From NCBI GenBank assembly GCA_902599995.1, contig CACKHN010000002.1, forward strand, positions 62,001 through 126,000: 64,000 nt of DNA, read 5' to 3'. Made by a program: the position numbers and the translations under genes. Shown here in pieces: positions 1 through 18,914 of this stretch; position 1 is the stretch's first letter; each line of letters begins with the position of its first letter. Under the pieces are notes generated by a model. That model was not told the DNA's origin. It was given only the letters and a program-made list of their open reading frames with translations, and ran no database searches. Source of the stretch: an uncultured Pelagibacteraceae bacterium (lineage in GTDB: Bacteria; Pseudomonadota; Alphaproteobacteria; Pelagibacterales; Pelagibacteraceae).

Positions 1-1716
1 ATTATTCATGTGAAACATCATTTCATCAGGGTCTACCTTGTCTCTTGACATTATTTCAAATAATGTTGATGCCTTAGCCATCACCATTCCTGCATGAATC
101 CCTTTTCCAGCAACATCCGCTATAATAAAATAAACACTATCATTATGAGGGTAAAAACTAAAAAAATCACCTGAAACTTCTCTTGCTGCAATATTAATTC
201 CAGTTACTGGATAATTTTCTAAATTTCTTTTTGGTAAAAAATTTTCCTGAACTTTTACCGCAAGTTTAACTTCATTAGAAATTCTATCTCTCCATTTTTG
301 TTTTTCTGCCTCTGTGTTTTCCAATTTACTCATCAATCTGTTATAATAAAGACCAATGACCCCTCCTGCTGTAAATGGATCTTGAGGACCTCTAACTTTT
401 AAATCTCCAGATTTTGATTGTTTTTCTAAAACCGAAATTAAATCATGTTCTACAGAAGTTGCGTTATGTTCAGCAATATTTAGTCCAAGTTCTTCTTGAA
501 TCGGGCTTACTCTTAATGGATAAAAATAATTTAGTAATTTTAGTAAAATGTAGGATCCAAAGAAAGAAAATATACCAATTGAAACAATTCCAATTAACTG
601 TGCCTTAATTTGCTCAAATCGAGTTAACCCTGTGCCTAAAATATCAAGATCACTTAACAAACCAACTGCTAAGGTACCCCAAACACCTGCTGCAAGATGA
701 ACCGGGACTGCACCAACAACATCATCAATTTCAAATTTATTTAAAACTTCATTAACAAAAATTGCAACGACTGCACCAATGATCCCCACAAAAATGGAAG
801 TGACAGACGTCATAGAATTACAGCCAGCGGTAATTGCTACTAATCCAGCAAGTGGTCCAAGAATAATATAATAAGGATCTGGTTTTTTAAATAAAGCAAA
901 AGATATTCCTAAACCAGTTAACAAACCAAATGCTGCTGCGAGAAAAGTATTGATTAAAATTAAAGGTACTGCCTCGTCCATTGCTCCATTACTTCCACCA
1001 TTAAATCCAAACCATCCAAACCATAAAATTAAAGTTCCTAAAACAGCTAAAGGAAAACTTGATCCGGTAAACTTACCTTTATTAGCTTCTGAATATTTTC
1101 CAATTCTTGGTCCTAAAACTAACACTGCTGATAAAGCAATCCAGCCTCCAACGGAGTGTACAATGGTGCTGCCTGCAAAATCTATAAATCCAATGTCTGT
1201 TAACCAACCTGTTGTCTTTACTTGTCCGGTTATGGCTAACAATTGTCTAGTCGCATCTATATTATTTAAGTAACTTGAAGACCATGCCCAATGGCCTACA
1301 ATTGGATAAATAATTCCAGTCGCAAGAATGGTTATTATTATATATCCGTTAAATTTCATTCTCTCAGCAACTGCACCCGAAACAATAGTTGCTGCTGTTG
1401 CAACAAACATCGCTTGAAAAACGAAATATGTCATATATTCAGCTTGTTCAGTTTTGAAAAAGAATAGGTCTGTGCCAATTATGCCGTTATAACTTTTACC
1501 AAACATTAAGCCAAAACCAAATATCCAGAAAATAACTACAGCTACACCAAAATCGGCAGCATTTTTCAAAGCCACATTAATACTATTTTTATGTCTAGAA
1601 AGTCCAGTTTCCATACACATAAATCCAGCCTGCATAATGAAAACTAGAATCGCACAATCAATAACCCAAAGGGTATCAACAAATGATTTAACTGAGTCCA
1701 AATTTAAACTCTCCAT
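1..1716 (-). CDS. amt: Ammonium transporter (Amt) fused to SpoIIE/RsbU-type PP2C phosphatase domain, 3' end off window
   Basis: The reading frame is open from ATG 1716 to base 1 (572 codons, no stop). Residues 1 to about 400 are a full Amt/MEP/Rh channel: the N-terminus begins MESLNLDSVKSF and carries the GFMCMETGL motif. The two pore histidines are present in SIVHSVGGW (H187) and VPVHLAAG (H340), so the pore should conduct. After the last membrane segment there is a soluble linker of about 80 residues. A helix containing KVQENFLPK (about 488-496) follows, then GDFF (D517) and IADVAGKG (D534), the start of a SpoIIE/PP2C serine phosphatase domain whose remainder lies outside the window. GGAGG sits 3-7 bases before the ATG. 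The channel call is secure; the phosphatase call rests on the first 80-90 residues of that domain. Confidence 0.9.
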   Translation of the reverse strand, partial: MESLNLDSVKSFVDTLWVIDCAILVFIMQAGFMCMETGLSRHKNSINVALKNAADFGVAVVIFWIFGFGLMFGKSYNGIIGTDLFFFKTEQAEYMTYFVFQAMFVATAATIVSGAVAERMKFNGYIIITILATGIIYPIVGHWAWSSSYLNNIDATRQLLAITGQVKTTGWLTDIGFIDFAGSTIVHSVGGWIALSAVLVLGPRIGKYSEANKGKFTGSSFPLAVLGTLILWFGWFGFNGGSNGAMDEAVPLILINTFLAAAFGLLTGLGISFALFKKPDPYYIILGPLAGLVAITAGCNSMTSVTSIFVGIIGAVVAIFVNEVLNKFEIDDVVGAVPVHLAAGVWGTLAVGLLSDLDILGTGLTRFEQIKAQLIGIVSIGIFSFFGSYILLKLLNYFYPLRVSPIQEELGLNIAEHNATSVEHDLISVLEKQSKSGDLKVRGPQDPFTAGGVIGLYYNRLMSKLENTEAEKQKWRDRISNEVKLAVKVQENFLPKRNLENYPVTGINIAAREVSGDFFSFYPHNDSVYFIIADVAGKGIHAGMVMAKASTLFEIMSRDKVDPDEMMFHMNN

Positions 1717-1743
1717 GTTCCTCCTTTAGATTATAACTTAAAG

Positions 1744-1772
1744 TGTATATAACAAATTAGATTAATGTTCAA
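1744..1772 (-). promoter_or_regulatory. Candidate sigma-70 promoter for amt
   Basis: On the minus strand a TTGAAC box (1772-1767) and a TATACA box (1749-1744) are separated by exactly 17 bases. Predicted transcription would start near 1737, giving a leader of about 20 bases that includes the GGAGG ribosome site at 1724-1720. This would let amt be transcribed apart from the rodA operon upstream. It was found by eye in AT-rich DNA, so chance matches are possible. Confidence 0.4.
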
Positions 1773-1791
1773 AGTAGGTTTTATTCAGCTT

Positions 1792-2919
1792 TTATCCAGC
1801 AATTAATTGCCTGTGATTTATTTTGGCACTTAAAACAATTCCAAACCCAATCATTGTAGCTAACAAAGAAGAACCACCATATGACATGATGGGTAAAGGT
1901 GATCCAACGATTGGCAGTAAGCCTAAAACCATTGATAGATTAACTACGATATAAATAAAAATTGAAAAAGCAAAACCGAAACAAAACAATTTAGAAAAAT
2001 TACTTCTCGATATAGCTCCGATATGAATAATTCTTATAATGATTATTGTATATAAAATTAAAAGACCTATAGATCCAATAAAGCCAAATTCTTCTGAAAA
2101 TAATGTAAAAATAAAATCTGTATGCTTTTCTGGTAAAAAATCTAGATAGCTCTGCGTGCCTTTTAAAAATCCTTTACCATTAAATCCACCTGAACCAATT
2201 GCAATTTTAGATTGGATAATTTGATATCCCGCACCTAGAGGATCTCTATCCGGGTCTAAAAAGGTAAGAATTCTTAGTTTTTGATAAGGTTTTAAAAACG
2301 AAATAATAAAAGGTAAGGAAATAATTCCAAATATAAAAGAATAAACAAAATATTTGATTTTAATACCTGCAATCCACAAAATAATTAATCCACTTAGGGC
2401 TATTAATACTGATGTACCAAGATCTGGTTGAGAAATTACTAGAATAACAGGTAACAATATGATTGATAGAACTAAAGTTATACTAGAAAGAGAATTTACA
2501 TTTTCAATTTTTATTCGATGATAATATTTTGCTAACGTTAATATGATAGCTATTTTCATTAATTCTGAAGGTTGTAGAACAAAAAAATATAAATTCATCC
2601 ATCTTTGCGAACCTGAAGCTTTAAGGCCAAAAAAAGAAACCCAAACTAACAAAAGAATAATTAGAAAATAAAAAAGATAAGCAAAAGTATGCCAATGTTT
2701 AATATTAAAAAATGCTATAACCAGCATTAATGGAAATAAAACTATAAGTTTCATGAAATGGTTCTTCGTGTGGAAAAGTATATCTCCACCATCTGTTGAA
2801 TACATCACCATCAAGCTTATAAAAGATAAAAGAATGATGCAGATTAAAAGCACATAATCTATTTCTTTAATTTTTTGAATAATCGAAAGATCTGAATTTA
2901 GTCGTTTATAATAAAACAT
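1792..2919 (-). CDS. rodA: Rod-shape SEDS glycosyltransferase RodA
   Basis: A 375-residue polytopic membrane protein of the SEDS family, which polymerises lipid II glycan strands with PBP2 during lateral wall growth. About ten hydrophobic segments are visible. Family motifs include GSQRWMNL (about 103-110), QPDLGTS (164-170) and LPEKHTDFIF (262-271), where D268 matches the essential SEDS aspartate. The C-terminal GLLPIVGSPLPIMSYGGSS matches RodA/FtsW. It directly follows mrdA with no gap, at the end of an mreBCD-mrdA-rodA operon, which favours RodA over FtsW. Confidence 0.96.
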   Translation of the reverse strand: MFYYKRLNSDLSIIQKIKEIDYVLLICIILLSFISLMVMYSTDGGDILFHTKNHFMKLIVLFPLMLVIAFFNIKHWHTFAYLFYFLIILLLVWVSFFGLKASGSQRWMNLYFFVLQPSELMKIAIILTLAKYYHRIKIENVNSLSSITLVLSIILLPVILVISQPDLGTSVLIALSGLIILWIAGIKIKYFVYSFIFGIISLPFIISFLKPYQKLRILTFLDPDRDPLGAGYQIIQSKIAIGSGGFNGKGFLKGTQSYLDFLPEKHTDFIFTLFSEEFGFIGSIGLLILYTIIIIRIIHIGAISRSNFSKLFCFGFAFSIFIYIVVNLSMVLGLLPIVGSPLPIMSYGGSSLLATMIGFGIVLSAKINHRQLIAG

Positions 2920-4824
2920 TTATATATTTATATCCTCGAAGTTAGATTGTTTTTTTCTTAGTTCGTCTCTATCTATTATAAGCTTGAATAATTCTTTTGC
3001 CATTGGGGCAGCAGTTTTACTACCCGAGCCGCCGTGTTCAACGATTATACTCAAAGCATACCGGGGATTTACATAAGGTCCATAGGCAACGTAAAGTGCG
3101 TGATCTCTATCTTTGTAAGGTATTTGTTCTAATTTAAGATCTAACTCTCTTTCTCTTTTACTAATTCTTTTTACTTGAGAAGTCCCTGTTTTTCCTGCGA
3201 ATTGATATTTAGGGTCATCAATTCTAGATTTATAGGAGGTTCCATATATTTCGTTGGTAGAACTAAAGATCGCCTCTTGAACTGTTTTAATATTTTTTGG
3301 ATCATCAAATAATTTCAAATTAGGAGAGTGTAAAGAATCAACTTTCATTGAATTTTTTGCCTGTTCCAAACTCAATGGCTTATTATTTACAAGAATTCTT
3401 GGTTTTATTTTGTACCCACCATTTGCAATTTGTGCAGTCATTAAACATAACTGTAAAGGAGTAGTTTGGGTGTAACCTTGTCCAATCCCTGTAATCAATG
3501 TTTCACCTAACACCCATCCCCTTCCAAGATTATTTTTTTTCCAGCTAGTATTTGGAAACAGTCCTTGTTTTTCATTATCGAAATATTGTCCTAATACCTT
3601 TTCACCGAGCCCAAATTTTTTGGCAGTAATATTTAATCGATCAACACCTAATAAACGTGCTATCTCATAAAAATAAGTATCACAGGATTGTTTCATTGCA
3701 TTTTTTAAGCTTACAAATCCGTGACCTTTCTCTTTCCAACAATGAAACGTTTGTCCATAAAGTTCTGTTTTACCAGTGCACTTAACCTTAAAATTTGGAT
3801 TTATGATTTTATTTTCCAAAGCTGAAAGAGCCACGATAGGTTTTATTGTTGAGCCAGGTGAATAAAGACCAGAAATAGTTTTGTGGATCAAAGGTTTTAA
3901 TGGGTTATTTCTTATTAATTCCCATTCATCTTGGCTAATTCCAAATAAAAATAAATTAGGATCGTAAGATGGTGAGGAATACATTGCAATTATATCGCCA
4001 GTATAAATATCCATCACACTTATTGATCCAGCTTTATTTAAAAGTAATTTTGCTGAAAGTTTTTGAACTTCAGTATCTAAAGTGAGTCTGATTTTATTAC
4101 CTTGAGATCCTTTTTGATATTCAAGTTGATTGATCCTTTTACCATAAGCATTAACCTCATATCTTTGAATTGCGTTAGTTCCAATTAAATGATTTTCAAA
4201 CTTTTTTTCTAGTCCCAATTTTCCAATTTTCATTCCTGGAACAAATCTTTCTTGTACTGTTTTATTTTCAATAATTTCCTCTTGATTGGGCTGGCTAACA
4301 TAGCCAAGAACATGTGTATAAACATCATTAAATGGATAATTTCTTGAGATTGTCATTACAGGTTTTACACCAACAAGATCGTAGAGATAATTATTGACTT
4401 TCAAAAACTGACTCCAGGTTAAATTTTCAGAGACAATTATACTATCCCAGGGTTTTAATTTATTTTTTAACTCGGTTATTTTTTGAATTTTTTTATCACT
4501 CAAATCTAAAAGTGTTTTAAGTCTTACAAGAAGATAATTAAAGTTTTCAACTTGTTCAGGTATAATATGTAACTGATAAACTTTTAAATTTCCTGCGATT
4601 ATGTTTCCAAAATAATCTACAATGTTTCCTCTGGTAGGGGGTAGTTTCCACTCACGTATTCTATTTTTGTCTGACAGGGTAAGATATTTTTTGTTTTCAT
4701 TAATTTGAAGTGAAAAAAGGCGAGAAACAATTCCAGCTAAAATAACTACCTTAGCCATACCAATAATAAACATTCGTCTATTAAAAACATCTGACTTTCT
4801 GATACCTAAATTTTGTTTAATCAT
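2920..4824 (-). CDS. mrdA: Penicillin-binding protein 2 (peptidoglycan DD-transpeptidase MrdA)
   Basis: 634 residues, the usual length for PBP2, the transpeptidase partner of RodA. One N-terminal membrane anchor (about 18-38) is followed by the pedestal domain (PPTRGNIVD at 62-70) and the transpeptidase domain. The active-site motifs are present: SxxK as STIK (S325-K328), SCD (380-382) and KTG (545-547). The start overlaps the end of mreD by 8 bases, so translation is probably coupled. Confidence 0.96.
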   Translation of the reverse strand: MIKQNLGIRKSDVFNRRMFIIGMAKVVILAGIVSRLFSLQINENKKYLTLSDKNRIREWKLPPTRGNIVDYFGNIIAGNLKVYQLHIIPEQVENFNYLLVRLKTLLDLSDKKIQKITELKNKLKPWDSIIVSENLTWSQFLKVNNYLYDLVGVKPVMTISRNYPFNDVYTHVLGYVSQPNQEEIIENKTVQERFVPGMKIGKLGLEKKFENHLIGTNAIQRYEVNAYGKRINQLEYQKGSQGNKIRLTLDTEVQKLSAKLLLNKAGSISVMDIYTGDIIAMYSSPSYDPNLFLFGISQDEWELIRNNPLKPLIHKTISGLYSPGSTIKPIVALSALENKIINPNFKVKCTGKTELYGQTFHCWKEKGHGFVSLKNAMKQSCDTYFYEIARLLGVDRLNITAKKFGLGEKVLGQYFDNEKQGLFPNTSWKKNNLGRGWVLGETLITGIGQGYTQTTPLQLCLMTAQIANGGYKIKPRILVNNKPLSLEQAKNSMKVDSLHSPNLKLFDDPKNIKTVQEAIFSSTNEIYGTSYKSRIDDPKYQFAGKTGTSQVKRISKRERELDLKLEQIPYKDRDHALYVAYGPYVNPRYALSIIVEHGGSGSKTAAPMAKELFKLIIDRDELRKKQSNFEDINI

Positions 4825-7223: not shown

Positions 7224-8795
7224 TTATATACCTCTTACTTTATGACTTTCTTGCTCCATTGGAGCTGTTTTATCACGTTTTATAATCATTTTATTTAATG
7301 AATTAATATATGCATTTGCCGATGCTACTAATGTATCTGTATCAGCAGCCTGCCCAACTGTGGTTTTTCCTTTTTCCTCAATTTTGACACTAACTGTAGC
7401 TTGAGCATCTGTTCCTTCCGTTACAGCGTGCACTTGATACAATTGTAAATTTACTTCATGTGGAAATAGTGTTTTGATACATTTAAAAATCGCATCTACT
7501 GGACCATCTCCAGTTTCTGACGCTTTTTTGATGTCGCCATATACATCCAAAGTCATTTCTGCCCTTTGAGGTTCACCCGTTCCAGCAAAAACTTTTAAAG
7601 ATTTGAGACTAATTGCATTTACTTTGTTATCAATAATCAAACTATCATCTATTAAAGCAATGATATCTTCATCATAAACATGTTTTTTCTTATCCGCTAA
7701 AACTTTAAACTTAGCAAAAGCATTGCTTACAACATCATCCATTAAATCAGGATAGCCTAAACTGTTTAATTTATCTTTAAATGCATGTCTGCCAGAATGT
7801 TTACCCATTACTAATGAGGTTTGTTTAACACCAACACTTTCAGGGGTCATAATTTCGTATGTTTGTCTATTTTTAAGCATTCCATCCTGATGAATACCTG
7901 CCTCATGTGCAAAAGCATTTTTACCAACAATTGCTTTGTTATATTGTACAGGAAATCCCGTTGCATTTGAAACAATTTTAGAAGCTTTACTTAGAAGGGT
8001 TGTGTTAATACCTGTTTCATAAGGCATCAAATCTGGTCTCGTTTTGATTGCCATCACAACCTCTTCAAGTGCAGCATTTCCAGCTCTTTCTCCTAACCCA
8101 TTGATGGTACATTCAATTTGTCTAGCTCCAGCCTGTACGCCAGCTAAAGAGTTTGCAACTGCTAAACCTAAGTCATTATGACAGTGTGTTGATAAAATTG
8201 CTTGATCAATATTTGGAACTTTATTTAATAAAGTTTCAATTATTTTGGTAAACTCAGATGGAATTGTATAACCAACTGTATCAGGAATATTTATTGTTGT
8301 TGCCCCATTTTTAATAGCTAGTTCCACAGTCTTGCACATAAAATCCATATCTGTTCTTGTGCCATCTTCACATGACCATTCGACATCATCAGTAAATTTT
8401 CTTGCATAGGCAACATGCTGTCCAATAGACTCGTACACATCATCTGGAGACATATTTAACTTATGCTTCATATGAAGAGGACTTGTTGAAATAAATGTGT
8501 GAATTCTAAATCTTGGAGCATGTTTTAAAGCTTCATAGGCTCTATCAATATCTTTCTTGGAATGTCTAGATAATCCTGCAGGGATAGATTTTTTTAAAAT
8601 CTTGCTAACTTCAGTTACTGCTTCAAAATCTCCGGGGGATGCAATTGGAAAGCCTGCCTCAATAATATCTATTCCTAATTCATCAAATACTCTTGCAATT
8701 TGGATTTTTTCCTCCAAACTCATAGACGCACCTGGTGATTGCTCACCATCTCGCATGGTAGTATCGAAAATTATAATTCTATCTTTGTTGCTCAT
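7224..8795 (-). CDS. leuA: 2-isopropylmalate synthase LeuA
   Basis: 523 residues, the first committed enzyme of leucine synthesis (acetyl-CoA plus 2-oxoisovalerate). The N-terminal TIM barrel starts FDTTMRDGEQSPGASM (10-25) and has the metal motif STHCHNDLGLA. The C-terminal LeuA regulatory domain (about 390-510) implies leucine feedback control, as known for the family. It lies downstream of ilvI-ilvH-ilvC on the same strand after a 105-base gap, which could hold a promoter, and runs directly into mreB. Confidence 0.97.
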   Translation of the reverse strand: MSNKDRIIIFDTTMRDGEQSPGASMSLEEKIQIARVFDELGIDIIEAGFPIASPGDFEAVTEVSKILKKSIPAGLSRHSKKDIDRAYEALKHAPRFRIHTFISTSPLHMKHKLNMSPDDVYESIGQHVAYARKFTDDVEWSCEDGTRTDMDFMCKTVELAIKNGATTINIPDTVGYTIPSEFTKIIETLLNKVPNIDQAILSTHCHNDLGLAVANSLAGVQAGARQIECTINGLGERAGNAALEEVVMAIKTRPDLMPYETGINTTLLSKASKIVSNATGFPVQYNKAIVGKNAFAHEAGIHQDGMLKNRQTYEIMTPESVGVKQTSLVMGKHSGRHAFKDKLNSLGYPDLMDDVVSNAFAKFKVLADKKKHVYDEDIIALIDDSLIIDNKVNAISLKSLKVFAGTGEPQRAEMTLDVYGDIKKASETGDGPVDAIFKCIKTLFPHEVNLQLYQVHAVTEGTDAQATVSVKIEEKGKTTVGQAADTDTLVASANAYINSLNKMIIKRDKTAPMEQESHKVRGI

Positions 8796-8900
8796 AACTA
8801 AATTTTAGAAAAATTTATATTACAATCTATAGGTGATATTGCAAAATAAATGTTAAATTTATACTATATTTTTAAGTCACTTTTGGGCCTTTATCAAAAT

Positions 8901-9935
<1,035 letters not shown>

Positions 9936-18609: not shown

Positions 18610-18617
18610 GAATGTTA

Positions 18618-18645
18618 TTGAATCTATTGTATTTCCTTTTATATT
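18618..18645 (+). promoter_or_regulatory. Candidate promoter of the tmRNA gene
   Basis: TTGAAT (18618-18623) and TATATT (18640-18645) are 16 bases apart. The predicted start near 18652 coincides with the first base of a perfect GTTGG/CCAAC hairpin that begins the acceptor piece. The promoter lies between tmRNA and the divergently read thyX. Evidence is pattern and position only. Confidence 0.45.
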
Positions 18646-18649
18646 AATA

Positions 18650-18914
18650 ATGTTGGTTTTCCAACTACGACGATAAACGAATTTCGTAATAACCATTGCG
18701 GACGTGGGGGCAGTACCCACCACCTCCACCATTACAACTTATGGGGGTGAACTAGATTCGACGAATGACTAAAAGTTATTCTTTCGTTCGGGATTGTTCC
18801 ACCGTGACGGGCTAATTTATAATTGCTAACGAAAGTTACGCACTTGCTGCCTAATTAACTTAGTTAATTAAGCAAACGGGGTTCGGGGCACCTGGCAACA
18901 GAACGCCCCCTAAT
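18650..18914 (+). ncRNA. ssrA: Permuted two-piece tmRNA (ssrA), tag ANESYALAA
   Basis: The gene is circularly permuted, as in other alphaproteobacteria. The acceptor piece comes first and ends CACCTCC-ACCA (18721-18731) with CCA encoded. After an 11-base spacer (18732-18742) the coding piece starts GGGGGTG (18743-18749), which pairs with CACCTCC as a 7-bp acceptor stem with one G-U pair. GATTCGACGA follows, the conserved D-loop-like element. The tag frame reads GCT AAC GAA AGT TAC GCA CTT GCT GCC TAA (ANESYALAA). GTTATT in the coding piece can pair with AATAAC in the acceptor piece (helix P2). The 3' end has a GGGG/CCCC hairpin followed by T-rich DNA, probably the terminator. End coordinates are approximate. 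Confidence 0.93.

Follow-up and report, generated by a model that had tools for sequence, protein, structure and literature searches.

The window analysed here (64,000 nucleotides, C2:62001-126000, where C2 is a contig of G000, the window's genome) opens inside a gene read on the reverse strand. Its positions 1-1716 (-) hold an open frame of 572 amino acids without a stop, corresponding to the first 572 of the 716 codons of an Amt-SpoIIE fusion gene. When the contig is read beyond the window, the gene is found to occupy C2:61566-63716, its last 144 codons and its stop codon lying outside the window at C2:61566-62000. In window coordinates, the features at this locus are:

1-1716 (-): codons 1-572 (of 716) of the Amt-SpoIIE fusion gene; frame read in the sequence
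457-1668 (-): Amt (ammonium transporter) domain spanning residues 17-420 and including the pore histidines H187 and H340; PF00909, 372 bits, pore checked against Ks-Amt5
202-456 (-): linker, residues 421-505; from alignment, with a helix at 469-493 predicted by AlphaFold2 at low confidence
1-201 (-): first part of the SpoIIE/PPM phosphatase (residues 506-572), including D517 and D534; PF07228, alignment and fold match
1720-1725 (-): probable ribosome binding site (AGGAGG) lying 3 bases ahead of the ATG start codon; read from the sequence

Elsewhere in the window, a tmRNA gene (18614-18914, +) matches both the alpha-tmRNA and the permuted tmRNA families.

In the windowed 572 residues, Pfam recognises Ammonium_transp at 17-420 (E = 1.9e-111) and the beginning of SpoIIE at 526-571 (30.7 bits, for a cut-off of 25). 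The full protein consists of the Amt domain (17-420), the linker and a complete SpoIIE/PPM phosphatase domain (526-714; PF07228, 119.5 bits over profile positions 3-189 of 192) with four catalytic aspartates. The earlier note on this DNA had placed the pore histidines H187 and H340 and the phosphatase residues D517 and D534 correctly, and had made the remaining metal aspartates a test of its reading: they are present past the window, D655 in an FTDG motif and D708 in SDDLT, and all four are invariant across 13 aligned fusions. Among the 109 fusion ORFs from the best 80 of 475 loci described below, 107 carry all four aspartate motif patterns and all carry both pore histidine patterns.

A whole-protein AlphaFold2 model was built from 13 sequences, and only the phosphatase half was used because the Amt half is of low confidence (mean pLDDT 66.7). 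In the model of linker and phosphatase, the start of the linker stays below 50, the predicted helix preceding the phosphatase (residues 469-493, or 75-99 of the model) reaches about 60 (about 47-60 across both models), and blocks of 70-96 are seen from residue 101 on. The phosphatase model has fold matches to SiaA-PP2C at Z 25.1, Rv1364c (RsbU domain) at 24.3, a phosphatase of Sphaerobacter at 22.6, RssB at 22.0 and SpoIIE at 21.9, where Z values within 1 of each other are tied and a common fold shows no function. Model and fold matching together point to a PPM fold for this part of the protein. PPM phosphatases of this kind act as dimers, and Amt proteins are trimers (PMC5764959, PMC12143880, PMC7647112). 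For RsbU, dimerisation and activation of the phosphatase are reported to come from an ordered helical linker, and it has been proposed that sensors are exchangeable among PPM, histidine kinase and GGDEF outputs via helical linkers (PMC12143880).

Distribution and relatives of the fusion

A scan of named genomes yielded 475 relatives, of which the best 80 all belong to Pelagibacteraceae or Pelagibacterales, i.e. SAR11; this uniform make-up does not show absence elsewhere, because only the best 80 were kept. Most of these 80 loci bear AG- or AH- isolate names, which we take to be those of single-cell genomes, even if many of the titles read MAG. Some of them are the same records as loci of our genome sample. 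A fusion ORF in a single frame (stop to stop, 668-762 aa) is present in 78 of the best 80 loci, for a total of 109 ORFs, with two fusions in each of 31 loci; the two loci without such an ORF are short contigs (L111, 7.3 kb; L131, 3.2 kb). Single-frame fusions also occur in three one-contig genomes (G026, G035, and G043). The window's genome is incomplete (79%), which might favour an artefact of assembly or gene calling, or a decaying gene. The recurrence of the intact fusion in 78 of the best 80 SAR11 loci and in the three one-contig genomes nevertheless makes such an explanation negligible, and rules out the frameshift or assembly error between the Amt and phosphatase parts that the earlier note had named as its refutation.

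The family sample comprises 197 genomes, 51 of which belong to the same genus as the window's genome. The fusion described here (type A) is carried by 20 of these 51 genomes (19 full-length, one cut by a contig end), and a paralogous fusion (type B, 53-55% identical) by seven; 21 genomes carry either type. In other genera of the family sample, a single genome, G004, was found with a fusion of its own.

Type B proteins are 743-745 aa long, 52-54% identical in the alignment of fusions, and have an additional N-terminal stretch (L040:12323-14560, L041:12027-14258, L048:4474-6711, and L051:9212-11449). A secreted-looking C..C protein of 109-118 aa adjoins type B in two loci (L040 and L041) and is also found beside the fusion of G004 (L042); its copy in L041 is without Pfam match. 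We also observed that one Amt loop is longer by about 14 residues, ahead of a GWL motif (window 1210-1275, residues about 148-169), in six of seven aligned type A fusions; neither the remaining type A fusion (G043) nor type B nor the G004 protein has this insertion.

Outside SAR11, we surveyed samples of 385 and 398 genomes within the phylum for matches at E <= 1e-75, the class sampled being presumably Alphaproteobacteria, from the place of SAR11. Three of the 32 class rows were left out of the output classification. The window's own protein aside, no SpoIIE fusion was found in the other 29 class rows or in the 23 phylum rows (51 distinct rows, one being in both). Output types were assigned by motif patterns, with a Pfam check of nine proteins that included two SAR11 fusions. 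Among the Amt homologues sharing this linker, the output is a histidine kinase in 25 of the 29 class rows, GGDEF(-EAL) in 15 of the 23 phylum rows and one class row, and MCP signalling domains in two rows. Seven of the 51 homologues stand alone, and one (L090) has PAS domains only, with no output recognised. Both Amt-MCP proteins (L081:676-3015 (-) and L103:604-2910 (-); Amt, sensor linker and an MCP domain, PF00015, at 111.5 and 71.7 bits) are apparent ammonium chemoreceptors in genomes of SAR11's class.

By alignment, from which HK_L072 and GG_L083 were left out, the linker of the fusion is of the kind common to Amt-HK, Amt-GGDEF and Amt-MCP sensors. The pattern of these sensors is GLN..E.H...GD...P..PFT..G.I...YN, and its GLN..E.H start lies in the fusion at residues 411-417, just ahead of the linker. 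In a tree of 51 Amt proteins (midpoint-rooted for drawing only), the 13 SAR11 fusions form one clade (100/100), which groups with GGDEF sensors with modest support (88/76). The nine stand-alone Amts of the SAR11 family form a separate clade (100/99), within a group of ten (100/100). Judging from sequence comparison, the simplest account of the origin of the fusions would be one change of output domain in the ancestor of two SAR11 genera, followed by duplication.

Receptor or channel

The closest solved protein to the fusion by sequence is Sd-Amt1 of Shewanella denitrificans (PDB 8qj3, 8qj4, and 8qpf; 406 bits over residues 10-466, i.e. Amt and linker), whose PDB entries bear the title 'Receptor Sd-Amt1' in OFF and ON states. 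The alignment, in which both proteins show the same ammonium-site letters, reaches no further than residue 449 of Sd-Amt1 (644-661 aa), for which the output is presumably a diguanylate cyclase. The second-closest solved structure to the Amt part is Ks-Amt5 (287 bits), in which a high-affinity ammonium site is formed by Q24, E31, N47, D50, T51, T109 and T112 (PMC5764959). Five of these seven residues are identical in the fusion (Q29, E36, N52, D55, and T110), while T112 is replaced by S113 and T51 by F56, the T51 position being F in most aligned sensors. None of the nine examined stand-alone Amts of the SAR11 family has the site D, and the eight that can be read at the Gln position all have Ala there. 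However, the site Q, D and T also occur in six of seven stand-alone Amts from other families, so these residues were rejected as a sensor-only mark and are no proof of a sensor. In one GGDEF fusion (L094), N and A replace the site D and T.

The fusion protein (P0001) retains its selectivity filter, Phe gate and His pair (W145, S242, F104, F238, H187, and H340), the filter serine being Ala in type B fusions and Thr in the G004 fusion. Y30 and F34, which block the pore of Ks-Amt5, are M35 and L39 in the fusion, so that the channel may still conduct; pore blocking by this pair is a feature of Ks-Amt5 and is not known to define the receptor group. The genome also encodes a separate Amt of assimilatory type (marine_trans_1, above cut-off), from which the Amt part of the fusion lies apart. 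On these sequence grounds a receptor is likelier than a channel for the Amt part, but not proven. The earlier note had suggested that ammonium flux is coupled to a partner switch: a switch pair does exist in the genome (see below), whereas the flux part of the proposal goes beyond what the sequence can tell, and the Amt part is nearest to ammonium receptors.

Partner-switch genes, sigma factors and PII

The STAS and RsbW-like genes that had been suggested as possible neighbours are both found on the same contig, 28 kb from the fusion. The STAS gene (C2:33338-33637) is the one PF01740 match in the window's genome, and the RsbW-like kinase gene (C2:33637-34071) is its one HATPase_c_2 match above cut-off; the two overlap by one base (C2:33338-34071). 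In NCBIfam, the kinase is most like RsbW/SpoIIAB, below equivalog cut-offs, and the STAS protein scores above the anti-sigma-antagonist superfamily cut-off. The pair is embedded in a cluster of type IV pilus/type II secretion genes, among them T2SSE, T2SSF, secretin, PilM/PilN and N-methyl pilins. In a motif set of which at least six loci are repeats of the same record, the phospho-serine motif DSSG is present in 83 of 83 STAS ORFs and the N-box pattern in 76 of 77 RsbW ORFs, with STAS directly ahead of RsbW in all 77 loci having both. A STAS protein with a phosphorylatable serine next to a HATPase_c_2 kinase is the make-up of a partner switch, and the pair is a candidate for one.

Of the best 80 of 475 loci, 64 have the pair close to the fusion, at a median gap of 1367 bp (range 1180-4172). 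Among the other 16, four (L164, L167, L171, and L183) extend for 8.8 kb or more in both directions from the fusion, and in the remaining 12 the fusion is cut or one or both flanks are short. In the 20 type A genomes, the distance from fusion to switch is within about 7 kb in 14 cases and 22-29 kb in four; in one genome the fusion is on another contig, and in G035 it is 1 Mb away, with a type B fusion 4 kb from the switch.

Across the 51 genomes of the genus, 21 have both fusion and RsbW, none has the fusion only, 10 have RsbW only and 20 have neither. For SpoIIE and RsbW the respective numbers are 31 with both, two with SpoIIE only, none with RsbW only and 18 with neither, and for secretin and RsbW they are 30, three with secretin only, one with RsbW only and 17. 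These counts are an association and not independent trials, because the genomes share ancestry, and p-values computed from them overstate their independence. Where a single contig carries both RsbW and secretin (29 genomes), 3.4-7.3 kb separate them, and even strongly divergent versions (G017, G063, and G078; RsbW 33-44% identical) stay within this distance. No STAS gene was recognised beside the divergent RsbW of G078.

Two further SpoIIE phosphatases are encoded in the window's genome, a GAF-SpoIIE (C2:58957-60246) and a CHASE2-SpoIIE (C2:55606-57618). With three SpoIIE phosphatases within about 8 kb, this genome is less poor in signalling proteins than the earlier note had expected, and more of them may be missing from it because it is 79% complete. 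G026 carries a fourth, soluble SpoIIE of 288 aa between pilin-like genes (L196:4826-5692 (+)), with a globin-like ORF (by eye) alongside.

Several other genes of these regions deserve mention. In L015, a GspE/PilB-like ATPase (7691-9439 (-)) has an MshEN domain (45.8 bits), which we take to be a c-di-GMP binding domain, and an 87-aa protein without Pfam match (3982-4245 (-)) adjoins pilin genes and has matches in 67 of the best 80 of 475 loci. An adhesin gene is reported for coastal SAR11, in every case next to genes of type IV pili or of type II secretion (PMC12636525). A 682-aa ORF and a 1386-aa VWA ORF of the island studied here, PilY1-like by eye, were not equated with this adhesin because their Pfam matches are absent or sub-threshold.

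In a search of Sigma70_r2 to E 0.001, with sigma-54 outside its scope, all of 12 genomes (eight with the kinase, G003 without it, and G005, G009 and G040 outside the kinase search) gave exactly two proteins, a larger one of about 610-630 aa and a smaller one of 300-314 aa. From their sizes, we take the two to be RpoD and RpoH. A dedicated sigma factor as target, as in the sigma-B system, is thus unsupported and unlikely. PII (GlnB/GlnK) was not found in any of 10 genomes of the genus, including the window's genome, nine of the 10 being at least 99% complete; the same search was positive in all three genomes of other genera in the family and in 13 of 14 control genomes. Fusion-free genomes make up half of these 10 (G003, G017, G063, G074, and G078), so the missing PII is not a trait of fusion carriers alone.

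Proposed function and related systems

We consider, with moderate confidence, that the fusion is an ammonium-receptor phosphatase of the Sd-Amt1/Ks-Amt5 type that feeds a partner switch, which is probably tied to pili. Ammonium bound in the Amt trimer would cause a change in the conserved linker and thereby act on the phosphatase. The latter, of SpoIIE/RsbU type (PPM), would strip the phosphate from the DSSG serine of the STAS protein, and the RsbW-like kinase would oppose it by phosphorylating this serine. The phosphorylation state would set the binding partner of STAS or of the kinase, and the free or phosphorylated partner may then act on the pilus machinery or on another target. With no spare sigma factor found, a dedicated one is improbable as this partner, which is most likely a type IV pilus/type II secretion component, the switch lying in that cluster. 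The GAF-SpoIIE and CHASE2-SpoIIE proteins encoded within 8 kb would bring other signals into the same switch. Among the points that sit uneasily with this reading, the fusion is 28 kb from the switch in the window's genome, and its coupling is hard to picture because Amt is trimeric and PPM phosphatases are dimeric.

Other readings have been considered. The fusion could be a transceptor, a working ammonium channel whose phosphatase follows flux or a signal inside the cell, and not ammonium at a receptor site. The complete filter, Phe gate and His pair of P0001 would fit this, as would M35/L39 in place of the blocking residues of Ks-Amt5, but we regard it as unlikely, given that the protein is nearest to proteins deposited as receptors, that its Amt part groups with sensor fusions in the tree, that the filter serine is changed in type B and G004, and that the genome has its separate assimilatory-type Amt. 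Less probable again is a classic anti-sigma system, in which one of the two sigma factors already present (e.g. the RpoH-sized one) would be under the control of the switch: the same two sigma factors occur in the kinase-less G003 and in the three genomes outside the kinase search, and the switch is physically linked to pilus genes, even if the NCBIfam results for both kinase and STAS protein lean towards such a system.

The phosphatase might also act on some other phosphoprotein, the nearness of STAS/RsbW merely reflecting a common island of surface-related genes. Several additional genes are present in the same island, and the fusion is more than 7 kb from the pair, or elsewhere, in six of the 20 type A genomes. 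Nevertheless, all 31 kinase-bearing genomes of the genus have SpoIIE, 18 of the 20 kinase-less ones are without it, and the best fold matches include partner-switch phosphatases, which makes another substrate quite improbable in our view.

The preferred reading, a receptor phosphatase feeding a partner switch, can be compared with several known systems. Histidine kinase, GGDEF(-EAL) and MCP fusions of other Proteobacteria have a homologous Amt and the same linker with another output. SiaA of Pseudomonas aeruginosa, whose PPM domain matches our model over residues 78-322, belongs to a system that includes SiaD, a diguanylate cyclase. SiaABC is a signal-fed phosphatase/kinase switch tied to biofilm, the target SiaC modulating SiaD, and SiaA has a different sensor (PMC7647112). 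Ks-Amt5 of Kuenenia stuttgartiensis (PDB 6eu6) resembles the fusion in Amt fold, filter, His pair and five of seven site residues, but its output is a histidine kinase, and its Y30/F34 and ligand T51 are not kept in the fusion (PMC5764959). The RsbU/RsbV/RsbW switch of Bacillus subtilis comprises the same three enzyme types and ends in sigma-B (PMC12143880), whereas no extra sigma factor was found in the 12 SAR11 genomes. In the HmpUVW partner switch of Nostoc punctiforme, here likened by description, STAS is proposed as the output; the available text mentions no Amt sensor, and this organism has several sigma factors (PMC6495340). An rsbUVW cluster has been described in flavobacteria, not in SAR11 (PMC2668756).

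The available text of PMC12918730 treats Ks-Amt5 without the words 'SpoIIE' or 'phosphatase'. No fusion of an Amt receptor to a PPM phosphatase was found in the openly searchable literature, and subscription papers or domain-architecture databases may list such an architecture. The parts are of known kinds, and what appears new, within the literature and rows covered, is the joining of an Amt receptor to a PPM phosphatase. If our reading is true, this would be, to our knowledge, the first transporter-derived trimeric receptor steering a dimer-activated PPM phosphatase.

Among the heterotrophs of the surface ocean, SAR11 is described as the most abundant group (PMC12636525). With PII not found in 10 genomes of the genus, how these cells perceive nitrogen is a question on which the fusion bears, and it provides a concrete receptor, a candidate substrate and a candidate output. 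It also bears on the proposal of exchangeable sensors (PMC12143880), a single membrane sensor family being found with kinase, GGDEF and phosphatase outputs, and its trimeric sensor poses the question of how a dimer-activated phosphatase gets switched. We tentatively propose, as a possibility and at lower confidence than the receptor phosphatase itself, that this PII-less SAR11 genus reads external ammonium via the receptor phosphatase, and that a sigma-independent switch leads to pili being made or used. If true, ammonium would directly set the making or use of pili in one of the ocean's most abundant cells.
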